Virus record (IMG/VR): IMGVR_UViG_3300046499_000366
Span: 1-32,751 of that record
Direction: 5' to 3' (one strand)
DNA from: a virus
Length of the DNA stretch: 32,751 nucleotides
The notes beneath the pieces are model-generated. The model did no database searches. It was given only the letters and a program-made list of their open reading frames with translations, and was not told the DNA's origin. How positions within the stretch are numbered: the first letter of the stretch is position 1; each line of letters opens with the position of its first letter. This document shows positions 19,185-25,632 of the stretch, one piece after another. The position numbers were made by a program, and so were the translations under genes.

Positions 19185-19316
19185 ATCGATGTTGGACTGA
19201 TTCCATCTTGCGCTTTCTATAGGTTGGAATTTAGAAAATAAATTATCCAACCAGGAGCGGACGTTCCCCTGATTAGGTTCTAAGGAATTATTCCATGGAG
19301 GCAGTGTGTAACTCAT
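19185..19316 (-). CDS. Portal protein, exon 1 (true start)
   Basis: The exon encodes 44 residues: MSYTLPPWNNSLEPNQGNVR, then SWLDNLFSKFQPIESARWNQ and SNID. The 'RW-x-x-x-x-ID' ending is typical of the region just before the first conserved helix of P22-type portals. The ATG at 19316 has AAAGGA six to seven bases upstream and overlaps the end of the HNH gene (19288). Standard gene callers will miss this exon because the intron interrupts it after 132 bp. Confidence 0.75.
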
Positions 19317-19908
19317 GTGCATCCTTTATCTTTCTTAATTTAGCCGAGTATTTTCCACTACATGAACAAGAACAAAATTTATGTTTAGCCCATTTTCCAG
19401 TGATAAATTCTATATTACATATTAGACAATTTTTTGTAACCAAATCACATTTTAACTTTCTTCTATTTCTCATATAACATTTAGGTGTACAAAATTTAGT
19501 CCATGGCTGTTTAGATTTAAACGCTACACAACAATAATCACACTTCAAATCAAATAATTTTCTTGTCTTGTGAGATTCCTTAGCCATCTCACTTTGCTTT
19601 TTCCTTCCCTCTTCTGTCTTCATCCATTTTCTAGCTTCTTTCAGCTGTTCTCTTCTTTGATCTAAATCAAATCTTCCTTCCTGCCTGTGTCTTTTCAAAT
19701 GATCAGACCTGCTAAGCATTTCCAGGTTTTCTATTTCATTGTTTCCCTTATCTCCATCTTTATGATGAATGTCCATTCCTTGGGGTATAGCTCCAAAATG
19801 ATTTATCCATACCCATCTATGCGCATGAATTGGCATCATATTGGCCCAATATCCATCTTTTTGCTGGTAAAATTTTTTACCGAAATATTTGCGATGTTCT
19901 TCTGACAT
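19288..19908 (-). CDS. HNH homing endonuclease with C-terminal zinc fingers
   Basis: The 206 aa protein carries an HNH motif: HRWVWINHFGAIPQGMDIHH at about 30-49 and then KDG..GNNEIENLEMLSRSDH. The DIHHKDGD core, the Asn in the middle and the final His are present. Four Cys pairs in the C-terminal half (CDYCC, FCTPKC, NCLICN, FCSCSC) suggest zinc-finger DNA-binding modules. It is free-standing, not inside an intron, and its last 29 bp overlap the first codons of the portal gene. It is preceded by leader element A and a ribosome site (GAGAGG). A family-based role is cleavage of the same locus in relatives. Confidence 0.8.
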   Translation of the reverse strand: MSEEHRKYFGKKFYQQKDGYWANMMPIHAHRWVWINHFGAIPQGMDIHHKDGDKGNNEIENLEMLSRSDHLKRHRQEGRFDLDQRREQLKEARKWMKTEEGRKKQSEMAKESHKTRKLFDLKCDYCCVAFKSKQPWTKFCTPKCYMRNRRKLKCDLVTKNCLICNIEFITGKWAKHKFCSCSCSGKYSAKLRKIKDAHELHTASME

Positions 19909-19939
19909 TATAACCTCTCTTCGTTACTCTCATTTGAAA

Positions 19940-19991
19940 AACCCACCACACGCTGAGATAACGTTATTCGCCCCGTCGGGCTAGGTGGGTT
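19940..19991 (-). promoter_or_regulatory. Three-way-junction leader element A
   Basis: Read on the minus strand, AACCCACC pairs with GGTGGGTT (P1). Inside are UA, the hairpin GCCC-GACG-GGGC (P2), GAAUA, and a small stem ACGU/GCGU (P3). It is followed by TTTCAAATGAG, AAC and a GAGAGG ribosome site for the HNH gene. Element B 360 bp away is the same except in P3, where the pair type changes but pairing remains. Probably a cis-acting RNA; function unknown. Confidence 0.5.
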
Positions 19992-20005
19992 AAGTTTTTA
20001 TTTAT

Positions 20006-20164
20006 TCATATAACTTTATCATTTTCCATTATTCCCTTTATCCATTTCCATACATATTTTTCTATTGTCATTCCTTCTTCTTTTGCTAATTTTTCTATGT
20101 ATTCATAAATATCTTTTTCAATATCTAATTCAATCCTTTCCATTTCTTCCCTCTCTTCTTCCAT
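20006..20164 (-). CDS. Small ribbon-helix-helix-like protein (52 aa)
   Basis: From ATG 20164 to TGA 20006-20008. The sequence is MEEEREEMERIELDIEKDIY and EYIEKLAKEEGMTIEKYVW, then a short basic end. The order strand (RIELDI), helix, helix is that of CopG/Arc-type repressors. It overlaps the 49 aa gene upstream by 40 bp in another frame. Its small size and position among early-type genes fit a regulator, but this was judged by eye only. Confidence 0.5.
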   Translation of the reverse strand: MEEEREEMERIELDIEKDIYEYIEKLAKEEGMTIEKYVWKWIKGIMENDKVI

Positions 20165-20274
20165 CTGATACATCCTTCTTTTCCAATTCCATATAAAGCC
20201 AAAGTGAGAATACGTTCCGTATCTAACTTAATCTTTCTTATTCTTTTTTTAATTTTAATTGACCCTTTAGACAT
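20125..20274 (-). CDS. Small very basic protein (49 aa)
   Basis: From ATG 20274 to TAG 20125-20127, behind GGAGGGG. The sequence MSKGSIKIKKRIRKIKLDTE and a Lys/Arg-rich end (WKKRGKKWKGLN) make it strongly positive. It directly follows leader element B. It could be nucleic acid-binding; no family is recognised. The overlap with the 52 aa gene means one of the two may not be expressed. Confidence 0.4.
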   Translation of the reverse strand: MSKGSIKIKKRIRKIKLDTERILTLALYGIGKEGCIRWKKRGKKWKGLN

Positions 20275-20305
20275 AATAACCCCTCCAGTTAACCTCATTT
20301 GAAAG

Positions 20306-20354
20306 ACCCACCAACGTCTAGGTAACGCTATTCGCCCCGTCGGGCTAGGTGGGT
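20306..20354 (-). promoter_or_regulatory. Three-way-junction leader element B
   Basis: The minus-strand sequence has P1 ACCCACC/GGTGGGT, UA, hairpin GCCC-GACG-GGGC, GAAUA, a stem GCGU/ACGU and then CTTTCAAATGAGG, AAC and GGAGGGG before the 49 aa gene. It is nearly identical to element A over about 60 bp. In P3 the first pair is G-U here and A-U in A, and the last is U-A here and U-G in A, so pairing is kept while bases change. Confidence 0.5.
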
Positions 20355-20363
20355 TAAGTTAAT

Positions 20364-20741
20364 TTAAAGATAGCAAGGATTGTGATATCTCAAATATCCT
20401 TCTATCTTTTTTGCGTATTCTTCAATATTTGCCAATCTCTTAAAGAATTTAATTTGTGTTTCATGACTATCCCACTTTGATTGGAATCCAAATTTATGAA
20501 AGATATCGACCAAATCCCATTCATCCCAGTTATGTAAACAATTTCCAACATCATAAAAAGATTTTTTACCTAAACGAAATCTTAGATATTCATATACTTT
20601 TCCAGGTTGATCAGGGAATGTCTCATAGATTTCTATATCACATATCTCTCCCTTCTCATTTTCAAGCCAACATATCCAACAATTTTCCTTTTTGTATGGT
20701 GGCTCTGTTAAAGGTGGTGGCATTCTCATCTTTTCTTCCAT
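20364..20741 (-). CDS. Hypothetical protein (125 aa)
   Basis: The protein has a Pro-rich start (MRMPPPLTEPPYKKE), then CWICWLENEKGEICDIEIYE, and a helical C-terminal half with several Trp and Tyr. It overlaps the neighbouring gene by 16 bp. Three Cys in CWICW...C could bind a metal but the spacing is not a known finger. No family recognised. It belongs to a set of small early-type genes between portal and terminase. Confidence 0.5.
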   Translation of the reverse strand: MEEKMRMPPPLTEPPYKKENCWICWLENEKGEICDIEIYETFPDQPGKVYEYLRFRLGKKSFYDVGNCLHNWDEWDLVDIFHKFGFQSKWDSHETQIKFFKRLANIEEYAKKIEGYLRYHNPCYL

Positions 20742-21082
20742 AGTTCTACTCCCAACTCATGTGTCATTTCTGCCATATATTCGATCTTATCGGTTAACTT
20801 CTCTATAACTGAAACCAAATGAAACAATTCATGGGCTATTCTTTCTAATACTGGATCATCTTGTATTTCATTCTCTTTTCCAACAGCCTTTTTAATACAA
20901 TCTATTATCCCTTTATCTTGTACTGAATCATATATTGCCTTCTCTACAGACTTCAAGAACGGCTCCCTTATAATTGGACCTGAGTAACCATCTCCAGCCT
21001 CTAACATTGTTAAAAAAGCATCTTTAATGCCATCTTTTACAGATTCTAAAAATTCTCGTTTGCTAATATCTGGTATTTTCAT
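20726..21082 (-). CDS. Hypothetical helical protein (118 aa)
   Basis: I start it at ATG 21082 (MKIPDISKREFLESVKDGIK), one base after the TAA of the preceding gene and eight bases behind AAGG; an upstream in-frame ATG exists at 21154 but lies inside that gene. The product is helical and acidic, with LERIAHELFHLVSVIEKLTD and a terminal ELWKKR. It has no signal peptide. Function unknown. Confidence 0.5.
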   Translation of the reverse strand: MKIPDISKREFLESVKDGIKDAFLTMLEAGDGYSGPIIREPFLKSVEKAIYDSVQDKGIIDCIKKAVGKENEIQDDPVLERIAHELFHLVSVIEKLTDKIEYMAEMTHELGVELWKKR

Positions 21083-21083
21083 G

Positions 21084-21368
21084 TTAATGTGCCTTTTTTC
21101 CTTTTCCATAATAAGGGCATGAATGTCCTGTATATTTTGGATCTGTTTGATCATTTACTTCAATTTTATACCATCTTTCATCGAGAGAGCAGCATATTTT
21201 TGAACTCAATAAATTTAAAATCTGATGAAGTTGAGCTGCTTCTTTGCATTTAACTCCATAAGCCTTCCAGAGTTTTTCAAGCCAAGGCTCTAGAATTTCT
21301 TGTGAAATTCGTAGATCTTTCGCTCACTGTTCATGTTGTTCAAATGTAAGTGGAATGCATTTTTTCAA
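21084..21368 (-). pseudogene. Small gene with an in-frame TGA
   Basis: A frame from TTG 21368 (GGAGG seven bases upstream) to TAA 21084 reads KKCIPLTFEQHEQ, then TGA at 21324-21326, then AKDLRISQEILEPWLEKLWK and KAYGVKCKEAAQLHQILNLL, ending CPYYGKGKKAH. Protein-like sequence lies on both sides of the TGA and a Trp (TGG) there would suit an amphipathic helix. TGA serves as a normal stop elsewhere in the window (for example at 2272 and 20006). It is either a nonsense mutation, a sequencing error, or read-through. Leader element C precedes it. Confidence 0.45.
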
Positions 21369-21399
21369 GGTATAACCTCCGTAGTTATCCGATTGAAGA

Positions 21400-21447
21400 A
21401 CACATCAGGCGATCGGAAATCGCTTTTCGCATGCCTGCTAGATGTGT
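21400..21447 (-). promoter_or_regulatory. Three-way-junction leader element C (divergent copy)
   Basis: On the minus strand ACACATC pairs with GATGTGT (P1). Inside are UA, a hairpin GCA-GGCA-UGC (P2), GAAAA, and a strong stem GCGAU/AUCGC (P3). It is followed by TCTTCAATCGG, AAC and GGAGG. The stems differ in sequence from A and B but the joints (UA, GAA(A/U)A) and the trailing TTCAA...AAC...GGAGG are kept. This is the most telling support for a conserved RNA fold. Confidence 0.5.
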
Positions 21448-21500
21448 CTAGTTTGATCTTAGTAAGATTGTATCAGGTTTTGGGTATATTGTAAATGGGA

Positions 21501-21634
21501 TTATTCACCAAATATCTCTTTTCTTAATTCTACATGCGTTATCTTTTCTGCTATTGAATGCCAATATTGGCCTAAGTTATTAATTATTCTTTCAAGATGT
21601 TTAATTTTTTTGTTTCAATGTCGTCTTCTGTCAT
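21501..21634 (-). CDS. Small gene broken by a -1 shift at an A7 run
   Basis: ATG 21634 directly follows the terminase stop (TAAATG) and has AGGAAA upstream. Read plainly it stops after 17 codons. Shifting back one base within the seven A at 21605-21611 gives a continuous 44 aa protein: MTEDDIETKKIKHLERIINN, then LGQYWHSIAEKITHVELRKE and IFGE. The zero frame reads A-AAA-AAA, the classical -1 slippery heptamer, but a missing A in the assembly would look the same. Confidence 0.4.
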
Positions 21635-23305
21635 TTATTTCCTGTAGTGGTCATACTTGTTTTTTCTCCATTCCTCCGCCCTTTCTTGGTCTTTATATGG
21701 ATTGTATTCACTTACCCTATGGGTTGCGATGGCATAGCGTAACGCATCACAATTCTTTACAACAATTCCATTTGCTATAAAATTTCCTGTAATTGGATTA
21801 GATAGGCAATAAACATCTTCAACTCCATCATCTTCAATTAATTTTACTCTTGAAAACATTGGATCAGTACACAAAACCTCATGCGTTGGTAATAAATTTC
21901 GTATCTCAATGTATCCATCCTTCGTATGCACTTTATGATCTTCCGTTGCTCTAAGAGCTTTGCCGTTTTCTAAAGTTAATTTTAATATTTTCTGCGCATT
22001 TTTAGTCATTTGTATGTTTTCAATATATGACTCTACAAATTCTTCATCTTGGATATTGTATGCATTCACTATTGACCTTTTGCCAACCAAATCTTTTATA
22101 CAAAATTCTCCTGCGTGTGTCGTTATTATAGTTTCTCCTGTCACACATGCATGATCAGAAGACTTAACCGGCTTATCATCGCCTTTCTCTGATGCTTTTT
22201 TGTCCCATACATAGCTTTCAATTTCTCGTATAAGATTCTTACAGTTTGGTCGAATTGTAAGATTTCCTTTCCGCATCTCGCTGGTAACCATCGTAATACC
22301 ATCTAATACCTCGTTATTTGCATCTATAGTCGTAAGGCCTAATCTTTGCATCTCACGCTTAAAAGAAGCTGCGGATGGATCAATATAAATCTGCCTAACA
22401 TTATAATCTTCTAGAAATTTGTGTACATCATGAGCAAATTCACTATTAGTCTTACCAAGTTGAGTAGCTTTTGGATCCCAGTAATATTCTTGATCTACCC
22501 AAAGATGCTTTCCTGTTTGAGTATATTTGCCTGTGCTTACTCCAATCAACAAACAAGCGAAAGGATTGCTAGCACCGTAATCAATACCAGCAATGTAATA
22601 TTCTGCACCCGGAGGCTTCTCAATAATGTGCAATTTTCTGTCGAAGAAGTCAAAAATGGCGCCTTCCGCCAAGCACCATAACCCAAGATAATTGCGCTTG
22701 TAGAATACACCACTAAGTGAATTACGAATGCGATCTTTATAATGTTGAGGCACATAAGGGTTATCATCCAATGTTATTTGTATTTCGTAGTAATTCTCAT
22801 CTCCGTCTTTAGCTTTATCAATCCATTGCTTAACTTTATGCGTGGGAAATGAAGGGTTGCATGTAGCATGGGCTTTGCTATGATCACATGATAAACGAGT
22901 GTCAATCATGTCTATAATACTGTCTGGGTAGAGTGTAATTTCGTCACAATAAGTTAAAGAATGCGTATCGCCTTGAAAGTTGCCTATTGCCCCTTCGTCT
23001 TTTGCACCTAAGATTCCAATCACTTTATCTCTGAAGTATAGCTTCTTACCGCTCCAATTACAGAAGGGGCGAAACATTTCAAACTCTGTAGACTCCATGA
23101 TCTTCCTTACTACATTTCTATATGCAGTATCGAAGGTATGGCCCACAATATAAATTGCTGAGTCAGGACAGGCAATTGCATCAGTGAGAAAACGGAATAT
23201 AGAGCCAACAGTTTTACCCGATCGAACAGGTCCATGGGCAATATTCCACTTGGCGTTAGCATTTTTTATGTATTCTACTTGTTTTTTACTGAATAAATCT
23301 GTCAT
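21635..23305 (-). CDS. terL: Terminase large subunit with a mini-intein
   Basis: This is the DNA-packaging motor. The ATPase domain has a Walker A motif GPVRSGKT at about residues 25-32 and a Walker B with LTYCDEIT at about 117-124. The nuclease domain has AGIDYG (about 239-244), IYIDPSA (about 316-322) and the final metal-binding DALRYA. I start at ATG 23305; a TTG at 23314 would add three residues. An in-frame mini-intein splits the protein between DHA and CDALRYA, next to the last nuclease Asp. After its removal the mature protein would be about 424 aa, a normal TerL length. TerS lies upstream on the same strand, across a small plus-strand island. Confidence 0.9.
   Translation of the reverse strand: MTDLFSKKQVEYIKNANAKWNIAHGPVRSGKTVGSIFRFLTDAIACPDSAIYIVGHTFDTAYRNVVRKIMESTEFEMFRPFCNWSGKKLYFRDKVIGILGAKDEGAIGNFQGDTHSLTYCDEITLYPDSIIDMIDTRLSCDHSKAHATCNPSFPTHKVKQWIDKAKDGDENYYEIQITLDDNPYVPQHYKDRIRNSLSGVFYKRNYLGLWCLAEGAIFDFFDRKLHIIEKPPGAEYYIAGIDYGASNPFACLLIGVSTGKYTQTGKHLWVDQEYYWDPKATQLGKTNSEFAHDVHKFLEDYNVRQIYIDPSAASFKREMQRLGLTTIDANNEVLDGITMVTSEMRKGNLTIRPNCKNLIREIESYVWDKKASEKGDDKPVKSSDHACVTGETIITTHAGEFCIKDLVGKRSIVNAYNIQDEEFVESYIENIQMTKNAQKILKLTLENGKALRATEDHKVHTKDGYIEIRNLLPTHEVLCTDPMFSRVKLIEDDGVEDVYCLSNPITGNFIANGIVVKNCDALRYAIATHRVSEYNPYKDQERAEEWRKNKYDHYRK
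21752..22147 (-). mobile_element. Mini-intein in TerL
   Basis: The 132-residue insert starts with Cys (CVTGETIITTHAGEF, block A), has ALRATEDHKVHTKDG (block B, T-x-x-H) and ends with VYCLSNPITGNFIANGIVVK and N before Cys of the C-extein (blocks F and G). The splice residues Cys1, Asn and Cys+1 are present. The usual penultimate His is Lys here (VVKN). No LAGLIDADG or HNH endonuclease domain is present, so it cannot home on its own. It sits in the nuclease active-site motif, a common insertion site for inteins. Confidence 0.9.
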
Positions 23306-23333
23306 TATATGCAAGATACATCACAGGAGTATT

Positions 23334-23387
23334 ATGAGCAACAATGAAGATAAAGAATTTGATCGGGGCTATATATACTTGAGGTAA
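23334..23387 (+). CDS. Possible 17-residue peptide gene
   Basis: An AGGAG sequence five bases before ATG 23334 precedes a short frame, MSNNEDKEFDRGYIYLR. It is the first plus-strand frame between the two terminase genes and is followed 30 bp later by a larger gene. The ribosome site is good but the product is tiny, so it could be a leader peptide or chance. Confidence 0.25.
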   Translation: MSNNEDKEFDRGYIYLR

Positions 23388-23417
23388 CACATTCAATACC
23401 CTTAACTAAGGGATTTA

Positions 23418-23588
23418 ATGCAATGGCAACAATGCAAAGGGTGTGGAAAATATATCAGTGAATACGGCTCTGAGCAAATCTACTACTCACGTTGTGAAGT
23501 TTGTTACCGTAATTTACATAAATATCACCCCATTATGATGAAAAAGATTTATCGAATATTTAAAAATTGGATGAAGTATGCGAAATAG
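23418..23588 (+). CDS. Small zinc-ribbon protein (56 aa)
   Basis: Starts MQWQQCKGCGKYISEYGSEQ and continues with SRCEVCYRNLHKYHP. The pair CKGC and CEVC can bind one zinc. AAGGG lies seven bases upstream. Its end overlaps the next gene by 11 bp in another frame. It lies on the plus strand between the two terminase genes and is followed by a second Cys-rich gene. Confidence 0.55.
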   Translation: MQWQQCKGCGKYISEYGSEQIYYSRCEVCYRNLHKYHPIMMKKIYRIFKNWMKYAK

Positions 23589-23949
23589 AGCTAAATGTAA
23601 AGCCTGTGAATCAATCATTGAAAGCTTAAGCTCACGTGATGAGTGCTCGTGTAAGTGCGGTAAGATCAGCGTTAGTGGAGGAGATCGGATGGGCTGCGCT
23701 GCTGTAGATTGGTCGCTATTCCTACGCGTAGATGATGAAGGCAATGTTATCACTCCTCAAGTATTAAATAAACCAATTCCGTCTAAACTTGAATTGCTGG
23801 ATGCTTTAGATGAAATGATAAAACGAATAGAAGATATGCCACAGCAAGCTATGGTAGTTTCAATTAATCATTATGACTTTGTTTCATTATTAATATTGCT
23901 TTCTTCTATATTTAGATCTGAGGGTGAGGATAATAAAGCTAAAACTTGA
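23578..23949 (+). CDS. Zinc-ribbon phage protein (DUF7695-like N-terminus)
   Basis: The 123 aa protein begins MRNRAKCKACESIIESLSSR then ECSCKCGKISVSGG, a pattern (C-x-x-C, then C-x-C-x-CG-x-I-x-V-x-GG) I associate with the DUF7695 group of small phage proteins. The second half is helical (LDALDEMIKRIEDMPQQAMV) and probably hydrophobic at the end. The 3' end overlaps the convergent small terminase gene by 79 bp. Function unknown; zinc binding is likely. Confidence 0.6.
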   Translation: MRNRAKCKACESIIESLSSRDECSCKCGKISVSGGDRMGCAAVDWSLFLRVDDEGNVITPQVLNKPIPSKLELLDALDEMIKRIEDMPQQAMVVSINHYDFVSLLILLSSIFRSEGEDNKAKT

Positions 23950-24281
23950 TCCATTTTTTGATCAAATTTCTTTTCTTTTTCAATATCACCAGGTTCTATG
24001 TGCTCTTTTTGTTCTAATCTTACTTTACCTAGCCATATTAGTAAACTATTTTCACCCTTATCAGTTAATCCCATCGCTTTAGCATATTGATGTGCTCTTA
24101 ATAAAGAATCACCTTTCGATCTCTTTTCTTGCAAGTAGACGCCAAAACCCACTTTTTTTTCTTCTTCAACCCTTCTATACAATGTTTCGGGGTGCATTCC
24201 TAAATAACCAGCTATTTCTGTGCCTTTACATCCCGCTATAAGCAATTGATCAACTTTTTCCCAATCAATTTCATAAGTCAT
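23871..24281 (-). CDS. terS: Terminase small subunit
   Basis: The 136 aa protein has a helix-turn-helix pattern IDWEKVDQLLIAGCKGTEIA then GYLGMHPETLYRRVEEEKKV, followed by an oligomerisation-like helix (SKGDSLLRAHQYAKAMG) and a Lys/Glu-rich tail. This combination, the size and the position just upstream of TerL fit a small terminase that recognises viral DNA and hands it to TerL. The gene overlaps the next upstream gene by 4 bp. Its end overlaps the plus-strand gene by 79 bp. Confidence 0.75.
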   Translation of the reverse strand: MTYEIDWEKVDQLLIAGCKGTEIAGYLGMHPETLYRRVEEEKKVGFGVYLQEKRSKGDSLLRAHQYAKAMGLTDKGENSLLIWLGKVRLEQKEHIEPGDIEKEKKFDQKMDQVLALLSSPSDLNIEESNINNETKS

Positions 24282-24541
24282 TTTTCATACCCACATGATG
24301 TACATTTATATTTACCACACCAATTTTTATTTGATGAGTCTTGCCATTGATAAATTCTACAGTTTTCACATTTCCATGCTTTGCCGGCAGTATTGTATTC
24401 TATAGTGTTCGCATTTAATGATATGCTGTAGATTAAGAATGGCAACAATAGAGCAAGCATAGACCAGAATGTTGCGTTGTCATATTCTTGTATTCTTTTT
24501 TTTTCATTTTTCTTGAAGATAGTTTCGTTATGTTGTTCCAT
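24278..24541 (-). CDS. Small membrane protein with zinc ribbon (87 aa)
   Basis: After a charged N-terminus (KKNEKKRIQEYDN) there is a hydrophobic segment FWSMLALLLPFLIYSISLNA (about 25-44), followed by two C-x-x-C pairs (CENC, CTSC) and a Cys/Trp-rich linker. The fold is likely a single-span membrane anchor with a zinc ribbon. It overlaps TerS by 4 bp. Such proteins are common in phage early or lysis regions, but the function is not known. Confidence 0.55.
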   Translation of the reverse strand: MEQHNETIFKKNEKKRIQEYDNATFWSMLALLLPFLIYSISLNANTIEYNTAGKAWKCENCRIYQWQDSSNKNWCGKYKCTSCGYEK

Positions 24542-24569
24542 GATTTTCTTATATAATTTATTTTGATTT

Positions 24570-24782
24570 TTAGTCTAGTTTTTCTTTACAGTTTGAGCAG
24601 TCAGAAAGTTGAACCCATTTAATGTAATCCCATATTGATGCATTCACAGCTAAATGAATAGCTATAGAAGCGGGATTTAATTCAAATGTTTTTTTACATT
24701 CTTCACAATATATTTGCAACGTGAGAGGTCCCCATTTAAGGTTTTCCTCTTTATCTTCAATCATTTTCATTAGTTGTTTCAT
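24570..24782 (-). CDS. Small Cys-pair protein (70 aa)
   Basis: Begins MKQLMKMIEDKEENLKWGPL. It contains YCEECKKTF and CSNCKEKLD, one zinc-ribbon pair. The intervening segment is hydrophobic (ASIAIHLAVNASIWDYI). It is one of several small zinc-binding proteins encoded in this strip. Function unknown. Confidence 0.5.
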   Translation of the reverse strand: MKQLMKMIEDKEENLKWGPLTLQIYCEECKKTFELNPASIAIHLAVNASIWDYIKWVQLSDCSNCKEKLD

Positions 24783-24817
24783 ATTCTGATTATATCATGA
24801 GAGTGATTTTAAGTCAA

Positions 24818-25288
24818 CTATGAAGATTTCTTTATTTTACTTCCGCATTTATCGCATACTCCTTTTTCTTCTTTCTTTCTGTCTGTATCCATATCATTTA
24901 TATCCGATCCGATCAATTCTTCGGGTTTAAATCCACTGGATAACAGCACATCAATATCCCATTCATTGGCTAATATATTAAAATCAAACTCACCGTAGGT
25001 TTTGTTGTCTTTGATGCATCGCGAATCTTGTATGTGGGATGGAAGGTCATGATCGATGACACATGGAATCTCTTTCATTTTAAGCTTTTTAGCAGCTCTA
25101 ACGCGTTGATTTCCTGCATAAACGTACATTCTAGCATTACACATGTTGACTAATACAGGCCTACAATTTAAGAATTCCGGATCTTCTTTAATGCTATGAC
25201 ATAGCTTATGCATTTGATCTTTTGTGATTTTGCGAGGGTTATTTTCTAATAGCACAAGATCTTTTATAGGAATGAGTTCAATTTTCAT
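24818..25288 (-). CDS. ParB N-terminal-domain protein
   Basis: The 156 aa protein has the ParB/sulfiredoxin-like domain pattern: LVLLENNPRKITKDQMHKL (about 12-30), LNCRPVLVNMCNARMYVYAG (about 39-58) and then NQRVRAAKKLKMKEIPCVI. The NNPR, the 'Y-V-Y-A-G-N-Q-R' and the helix R-A-A-K-K-L correspond to the nucleotide-binding part of the domain. A C-terminal CDKCGSKIKK pair looks like a small zinc site. Phages use such proteins as nucleases, methylation partners or regulators. The exact job is unknown. Confidence 0.75.
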   Translation of the reverse strand: MKIELIPIKDLVLLENNPRKITKDQMHKLCHSIKEDPEFLNCRPVLVNMCNARMYVYAGNQRVRAAKKLKMKEIPCVIDHDLPSHIQDSRCIKDNKTYGEFDFNILANEWDIDVLLSSGFKPEELIGSDINDMDTDRKKEEKGVCDKCGSKIKKSS

Positions 25289-25290
25289 GA

Positions 25291-25632
25291 TTAAAATGGG
25301 GGTTGCTCAAATTTTAAGTCGAATTGAGGTGGAATCTCCGGCATTATTAAAGGCCTAATATCATCTATTGTATTTTTTTGTAAAATTTTCTTTACATGTG
25401 ATAATATAAATTTTTTTGCTTCATCGGCTTCATAGCTGCTATCGAATTGAAAAGAAGGATAATAATTATCATCAATTTTTATTGAAGGAGCGTTAGAGAA
25501 GAATCCTTCCCCTTTTGGATTTTGAGCTATTTTGAATCTAAATATAAACCTTTTATCGGCTCTTATTGTTGCAATTCCTAAGTGTTTTTCATTCGGTGTT
25601 TCTGAGAAAGATAGAAATTCTAAGTTGTTCAT
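25291..25632 (-). CDS. Hypothetical protein with SpoVG-like pattern
   Basis: The 113 aa protein starts MNNLEFLSFSETPNEKHLGI. A central part IRADKRFIFRFKIAQNPKGE and FFSNAPSIKIDDNYYPSFQF resembles small nucleic-acid-binding folds (beta strands with a conserved APS-K segment, as in SpoVG-like proteins). A helix EADEAKKFILSHVKKIL follows. The gene is two bases from the ParB-domain gene, so they are co-translated. The fold assignment is tentative. Confidence 0.45.
   Translation of the reverse strand: MNNLEFLSFSETPNEKHLGIATIRADKRFIFRFKIAQNPKGEGFFSNAPSIKIDDNYYPSFQFDSSYEADEAKKFILSHVKKILQKNTIDDIRPLIMPEIPPQFDLKFEQPPF

Follow-up and report, generated by a model that had tools for sequence, protein, structure and literature searches.

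For repZ of the IncI-alpha plasmid, Asano & Mizobuchi (1998; a title cited in PMC10724649) reportedly described a pseudoknot switch, in which a loop binds a sequence ahead of the Shine-Dalgarno sequence (SD) and thereby sets the translation of the next gene; the switch reportedly requires translation of a leader peptide and is opposed by an antisense RNA. Phage P1 depends on the C4 antisense RNA to repress its antirepressor operon c4-icd-ant fully (PMC8198154), and in T4-type phages the ribosome-binding sites (RBSs) of homing endonucleases are hidden in simple hairpins (PMC2988022, PMC3014915), by which the need for control of this kind is established. The RNA family int-alpA (RF02996) is typed by Rfam as a small RNA (sRNA); it is named, without further study, among the putative small RNAs of STEC genomes (PMC12370729), and no published function was found for it in the literature searched.

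Here we describe three copies of an RNA element, A, B and C, in a virus record of 32,751 bases (hereafter the window, i.e., the whole stretch of DNA analysed), the genes of which include a P22-like portal, a terminase, Erf and YqaJ, and for which a nucleotide search for cultured phage relatives gave no real match. The first-pass annotation took these elements for a new-looking leader that resembled no known RNA. The copies do lie where it had placed them, all on the minus strand (A at 19927-19991, B at 20292-20355 and C at 21386-21448) and each before the ribosome site of a different gene, and the order P1-UA-P2-GAA(A/U)A-P3 that it had read is seen in every one, but they belong to int-alpA, a match that rules out a new RNA class. 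Against RF02996, cmscan gave 43.0 bits for B, 42.4 for A and 35.0 for C (per-genome E-values 1.8e-9, 2.6e-9 and 2.0e-7), which places A and B above the gathering cut-off of 35.8 bits and C 0.8 bit below it, the scores being filter-dependent, as in a whole-window scan in ‘evalue’ mode A scored no more than 32.2 bits and C was missing from the output. No Rfam ribozyme family, hammerhead included, was matched in the scans of the window. With the observation confirmed and the family known, the interest of these elements is in a pseudoknot, a hairpin around the SD, a second partner for the loop of P3, and an exchangeable endonuclease or antirepressor cargo.

In all three copies the core is a three-way junction, P1-UA-P2-GAAAA-P3-CU, with one nucleotide fewer between P3 and P1 in B, and the tail that had been written as TTCAA...AAC...GG consists of a linker, a pseudoknot site (site1) and the 5′ arm of the SD hairpin. 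RF02996, our structure parse and RNAfold place the core of A at 19940-19991, with P1 at 19984-19991/19940-19947, P2 at 19978-19981/19970-19973 and P3 at 19960-19964/19950-19954; the minimum free energy (MFE) fold holds the same stems together with the SD hairpin (z -2.58). The P3 loop (L3) of A carries UCUCA (19954-19958), the partner of which is either UGAGA at site1 (19928-19932), recognized from the sequence and from covariation in the family, or the SD, at predicted energies of -5.0 kcal/mol for site1 and -4.8 for the SD. This SD (19914-19920) sits in the hairpin GUAAC-GAAGAGAG-GUUAU (19910-19927), to which arm covariation in the family, RNAfold and the parse all point. In B (core at 20305-20355, within the matched 20292-20355) the sequence gives UACCUAG for L3 (20318-20324), of which ACCU pairs with AGGU at site1 (20292-20295); these 4 bp are the weakest such match among the three copies, and in the relative L010, where L3 reads UACCUCG, the match is 5 bp (ACCUC/GAGGU). 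The SD of B (20280-20286) lies in a hairpin with a UAAC/GUUA core (20276-20292) that is read from the sequence and that, unlike those of A and C, is absent from the MFE fold. C (core at 21399-21448, within the matched 21386-21448) differs from A and B in the bases of P1, P2 (GCA/UGC) and P3 alike; its L3 has UCCGA (21413-21417) and its site1 UCGGA (21388-21392), with predicted energies of -6.5 (site1) and -6.3 (SD) kcal/mol, and its SD (CGGAGG, 21376-21381) stands in the hairpin AUAAC-UACGGAG-GUUAU (21372-21388), again from family covariation of the arms, RNAfold and the parse. A and B form a near-duplicate pair, their sequences sharing 84-86% identity along some 92 bp and in the leader only, and C is diverged.

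The genes behind the leaders are likewise on the minus strand. A is followed by an HNH endonuclease gene of 206 aa (19288-19908, start at 19908; Pfam HNH_3, 1.9e-17; PHROG HNH), B by a basic open reading frame (ORF) of 49 codons (20125-20274, start at 20274), and C by an ORF with a TTG start at 21368 (21084-21368) which meets a premature stop after 14 codons (21324-21368), the L010 version being intact at 94 aa. A further small ORF at 20007-20171 overlaps the one behind B and resembles, by eye, a CopG-like ribbon-helix-helix protein. The window copies share the nested structure and junction letters of the Rfam family and differ from it in several respects: in the 71-nt model, the structure line given by cmscan is without the pairing of L3 with site1, the model stops short of the SD hairpin, the family is typed as sRNA whereas the present data indicate a cis leader, and what follows the copies is neither int nor alpA but one HNH gene and two unknown ORFs. 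The integrase/alpA neighbourhood of the family name, absent from the window, is found in E. coli relatives, and this location is no part of the model.

The annotation had named a search without homologues as a result that would speak against it; relatives were found, about 180 in all, by RF02996 searches and by scanning genomes and viral contigs for patterns; they come from contigs of viruses, from genomes of Proteobacteria and from E. coli. Set 1 comprises the 124 loci usable by the structure parser, and a held-out set of 59 was collected later and separately. The carriers are phages, prophages and satellites. Of 369 genomes sampled from the class that holds Aquitalea in the GTDB grouping, 40 have a match, as do 54 of 247 from a class containing Desulfovibrio; among complete genomes of E. 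coli the figure is 198 of 5,426, with every match on a chromosome. The covariation first noticed by eye is real, since 18 of the 22 pairs change on both sides in 14 aligned relatives and 96.8% of the cells are paired. Conservation of the P1-P3 core is partly built in, and is not independent evidence, because the search patterns and the parser demanded it; the pairing tests that follow (L3 with site1, L3 with the SD, and the SD hairpin) concern features that neither demanded.

L3 pairs with site1, about 5-15 nt 3′ of P1, in a pseudoknot. Own partners compared with swapped ones gave z=21 in set 1, z=13 in the held-out set and z=12.6 among 22 loci whose L3s have no 5-mer in common, and the pairing exceeded that of same-composition shuffles by -4.58 kcal/mol (t -28). 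In the 14 aligned relatives, which were picked for one common pairing register, a choice that favours the pseudoknot, each of its six pairs has changes in both bases, with 96.4% of the cells paired; shifting the structure by one column lowers whole-structure pairing to 44-46%. One E. coli copy has a compensated change, from GCCUUA/UAAGGC to ACCUUA/UAAGGU.

The same loop is complementary to the SD. Here the comparison of own and swapped partners gave z=10 in set 1 and z=8.6 in the held-out set, and z=12.9 (n=126) when overlap between site1 and the SD region was disallowed. The SD itself lies in a small hairpin of its own, the flanking arms of which covary (z=10.8 in set 1 and 6.3 in the held-out set; control arms -0.3 and 0.6). 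Among the 22 loci with no shared L3 5-mer, z was 5.8 for L3 with the SD and 6.5 for the hairpin arms, and both signals drop to p about 0.02-0.03 in the ten loci where no L3 4-mer is shared. Relative to same-composition shuffles the pairing of L3 with the SD reached -2.88 kcal/mol (t -17.5), against 0.00 for a control region within the gene. When partners were swapped in the held-out set, this planned control, the pairing of L3 with the start of the gene, had reached z=3.6, probably on account of mixed base composition, and the signal was gone in the own-composition test. The SD word matched by L3 is without any canonical-SD 5-mer in 70 non-redundant loci, L005, L126, L132 and L134 being the clear non-canonical cases by eye. 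Both L3 pairings reach at least 4 bp in 140 of 160 loci and overlap on L3 by half or more in 96% of these, so that the two are mutually exclusive, and their median energies, computed for isolated duplexes, are -7.9 kcal/mol with site1 and -7.7 with the SD.

We therefore favour, with a probability of roughly 0.6, the reading of A, B and C as int-alpA cis leaders that would act as a two-state translational switch for the next gene. The use of the same L3 bases by two partners of nearly equal predicted energy suggests two states, and we infer from these computed values that the balance is what would be expected of such a switch. The three-way junction would present L3, which would pair either with site1, as a pseudoknot, or with the SD shown in the loop of its own hairpin; the closed state would consist of L3 bound to the SD plus the SD hairpin, the open state would be favoured once site1 captures L3, and a signal, be it a factor binding the junction or the state of upstream translation, would shift the balance between them. 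The likely purpose would be to keep a risky accessory gene (an endonuclease, an antirepressor or a satellite gene) unexpressed until the time is right. Copy B, with its 4-bp match to site1 and an SD hairpin outside the MFE fold, speaks against the switch. As far as sequence comparison goes, the three helices, the L3:site1 pseudoknot, the SD hairpin, the complementarity of L3 to the SD, the near-fixed place and the exchange of cargo are all supported, and the idea of a translation-control motif, already put forward in the annotation, appears well supported by the near-constant distance to the start codon, the covarying SD hairpin and the covariation of L3 with the SD; its other suggestion, a phage-specific sensor, would be no more than a candidate. 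In having a loop whose partner lies ahead of the SD, as a proposed control on translation, these leaders resemble the repZ switch, the sequence of which is unrelated to int-alpA.

In both sets the distance from P1 to the start codon is 22-46 nt, and in most loci 28-39; a start codon was located in 123 of the 124 set-1 loci and is ATG in 114. The genes behind it vary. In set 1, 11 of 122 match HNH_3 and 4 of 122 Endonuclease_7, others match HNH, NUMOD3 and GIY-YIG families, and about 25 cargo genes are such endonucleases by motif and by eye; the held-out cargo includes 19 antirepressors among 59 (Rha 10, P22_AR_N 6, AntA 3) and about 10 endonucleases. The idea that the cargo consists mainly of anti-phage defence genes was considered and rejected, since PADLOC mostly flags homing or restriction-like endonucleases. 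The same leader precedes different genes in L010 and the window, in E. coli satellites and in Acinetobacter phages. L010 is 98-99% identical to the window over 19900-25471 and shares all three leaders, yet the two sequences part within a few bases of the start codon that follows A, with a different HNH gene beyond (breakpoint regions 19900-20000 in the window and 5025-5119 in L010), i.e., leader A was retained and the HNH gene swapped. In the Acinetobacter phages TRS1 and qsb1, a leader and an antirepressor gene are placed between tail genes. In E. coli, the order in the annotated regions examined is yicC, integrase, leader, a variable gene and a helix-turn-helix regulator in the position of AlpA, which acts as the activator when the E. 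coli island EcCICFT073 is induced (PMC6092414).

This orphan RNA family shows gene exchange behind a conserved, putative control leader. A broader proposal, which we regard as tentative and on balance do not adopt, is that int-alpA is a widespread mobile switch module, its anti-SD loop pairing with either the real SD or a decoy that resembles it, through which a shared infection-state signal times varied risky accessory genes of phages and satellites. If the leaders are cis translational switches, they would offer an easily mutated handle on the timing of endonucleases and antirepressors in phages and satellites, and the E. coli copies would permit testing in a standard laboratory strain.

The main rival to a cis switch is a C4-like antisense immunity RNA acting in trans, in which the core would be cut out or made separately and its L3 would pair with site1 and the SD of same-gene mRNAs, including those of an incoming relative. 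Such a role would leave the same L3:SD signal; C4 RNA is complementary to the translation start region, as is L3 of int-alpA. The sRNA type given by Rfam and the 19 antirepressors among the 59 held-out genes agree with it, and C4 of phage P1 is also an RNA ahead of antirepressor genes (PMC8198154). C4 is another RNA family, however, no match to it appeared in the Rfam scans of the window, and int-alpA has one loop facing two sites in cis. Core and targets are always linked within a few nucleotides, which favours pairing in cis, and the L3s of A, B and C differ, by which little cross-talk is expected, so that we hold action in trans to be unlikely, if worth serious attention.

Somewhat less credit goes to a metabolite riboswitch, with the conserved junction as aptamer and the L3 pairings as expression platform. 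A pseudoknot combined with an SD platform is common in translational riboswitches, and the junction letters are invariant in the aligned set, though partly forced by the search patterns; the downstream genes (nucleases, antirepressors, satellite genes), on the other hand, have no common metabolic theme.

Nor do we expect a static attenuator, a single fixed fold including the L3:SD pairing that dampens translation of the following gene to a constant degree, to account for these leaders, although the SD hairpin does covary and RBS-sequestering hairpins are known from T4 I-TevI and Aeh1 mobE (PMC2988022, PMC3014915). The leaders are akin to those of I-TevI, segB and Aeh1 mobE in that HNH or GIY-YIG genes are controlled translationally by RNA around the RBS, but the T4-type structures are simple stems, whereas int-alpA has a three-way junction, a pseudoknot and a second partner for L3, and also stands before unrelated genes; a fixed fold needs no two balanced, mutually exclusive partners. 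An independent sRNA without relation to the downstream gene, for which only the Rfam annotation speaks, is highly improbable, given that the start codon lies at a near-constant distance and that the RNA covaries with the next gene's SD.

Returning to the two-state switch, the upstream side of the leader offers a lead on its signal. A stop codon lies 6-9 nt before P1 in 39 of 89 set-1 loci, with 13 unrelated upstream protein families; the peak comes from the satellite and prophage loci, and in satellite loci the upstream gene usually ends at this distance. B of the window also fits, its P1 starting 8 nt past the stop codon of an ORF that ends at 20364. The distance is about that of the leading edge of a ribosome halted at a stop codon, so upstream translation could be the signal. 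Fixed spacing as a universal feature was rejected, as the held-out set has only 7 of about 30 and no clear peak, and so was any readthrough of the upstream gene's stop codon or fusion of frames with that gene, the reading frames being spread 15/14/10.

A sigma-70 promoter proper to every copy was rejected too, upstream information being weak overall. By eye, TGnTATAAT is present at many endonuclease loci and not at satellite loci, which suggests that the loci with it are self-contained expression cassettes; in L107, L126, L132, L134 and L052 this extended -10-like sequence stands a few nucleotides before P1.

The terminase large subunit of the window (21635-23314) carries a mini-intein (insert at about 21753-22150; Pfam Intein_splicing, 2.2e-10), which is missing from L010, where the ORF is continuous. 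In the phage contig L104 (1-2600) two int-alpA leaders, with a zinc-finger-like ORF between them, precede a fragment like the middle of the window terminase and an HNH gene, respectively, and the terminase may be split there. Finally, P2 loops other than GACG often contain palindromes by eye (GGCC, AGCU and GAUC, e.g., in L056, L189 and L094), and could allow loop-loop dimers.
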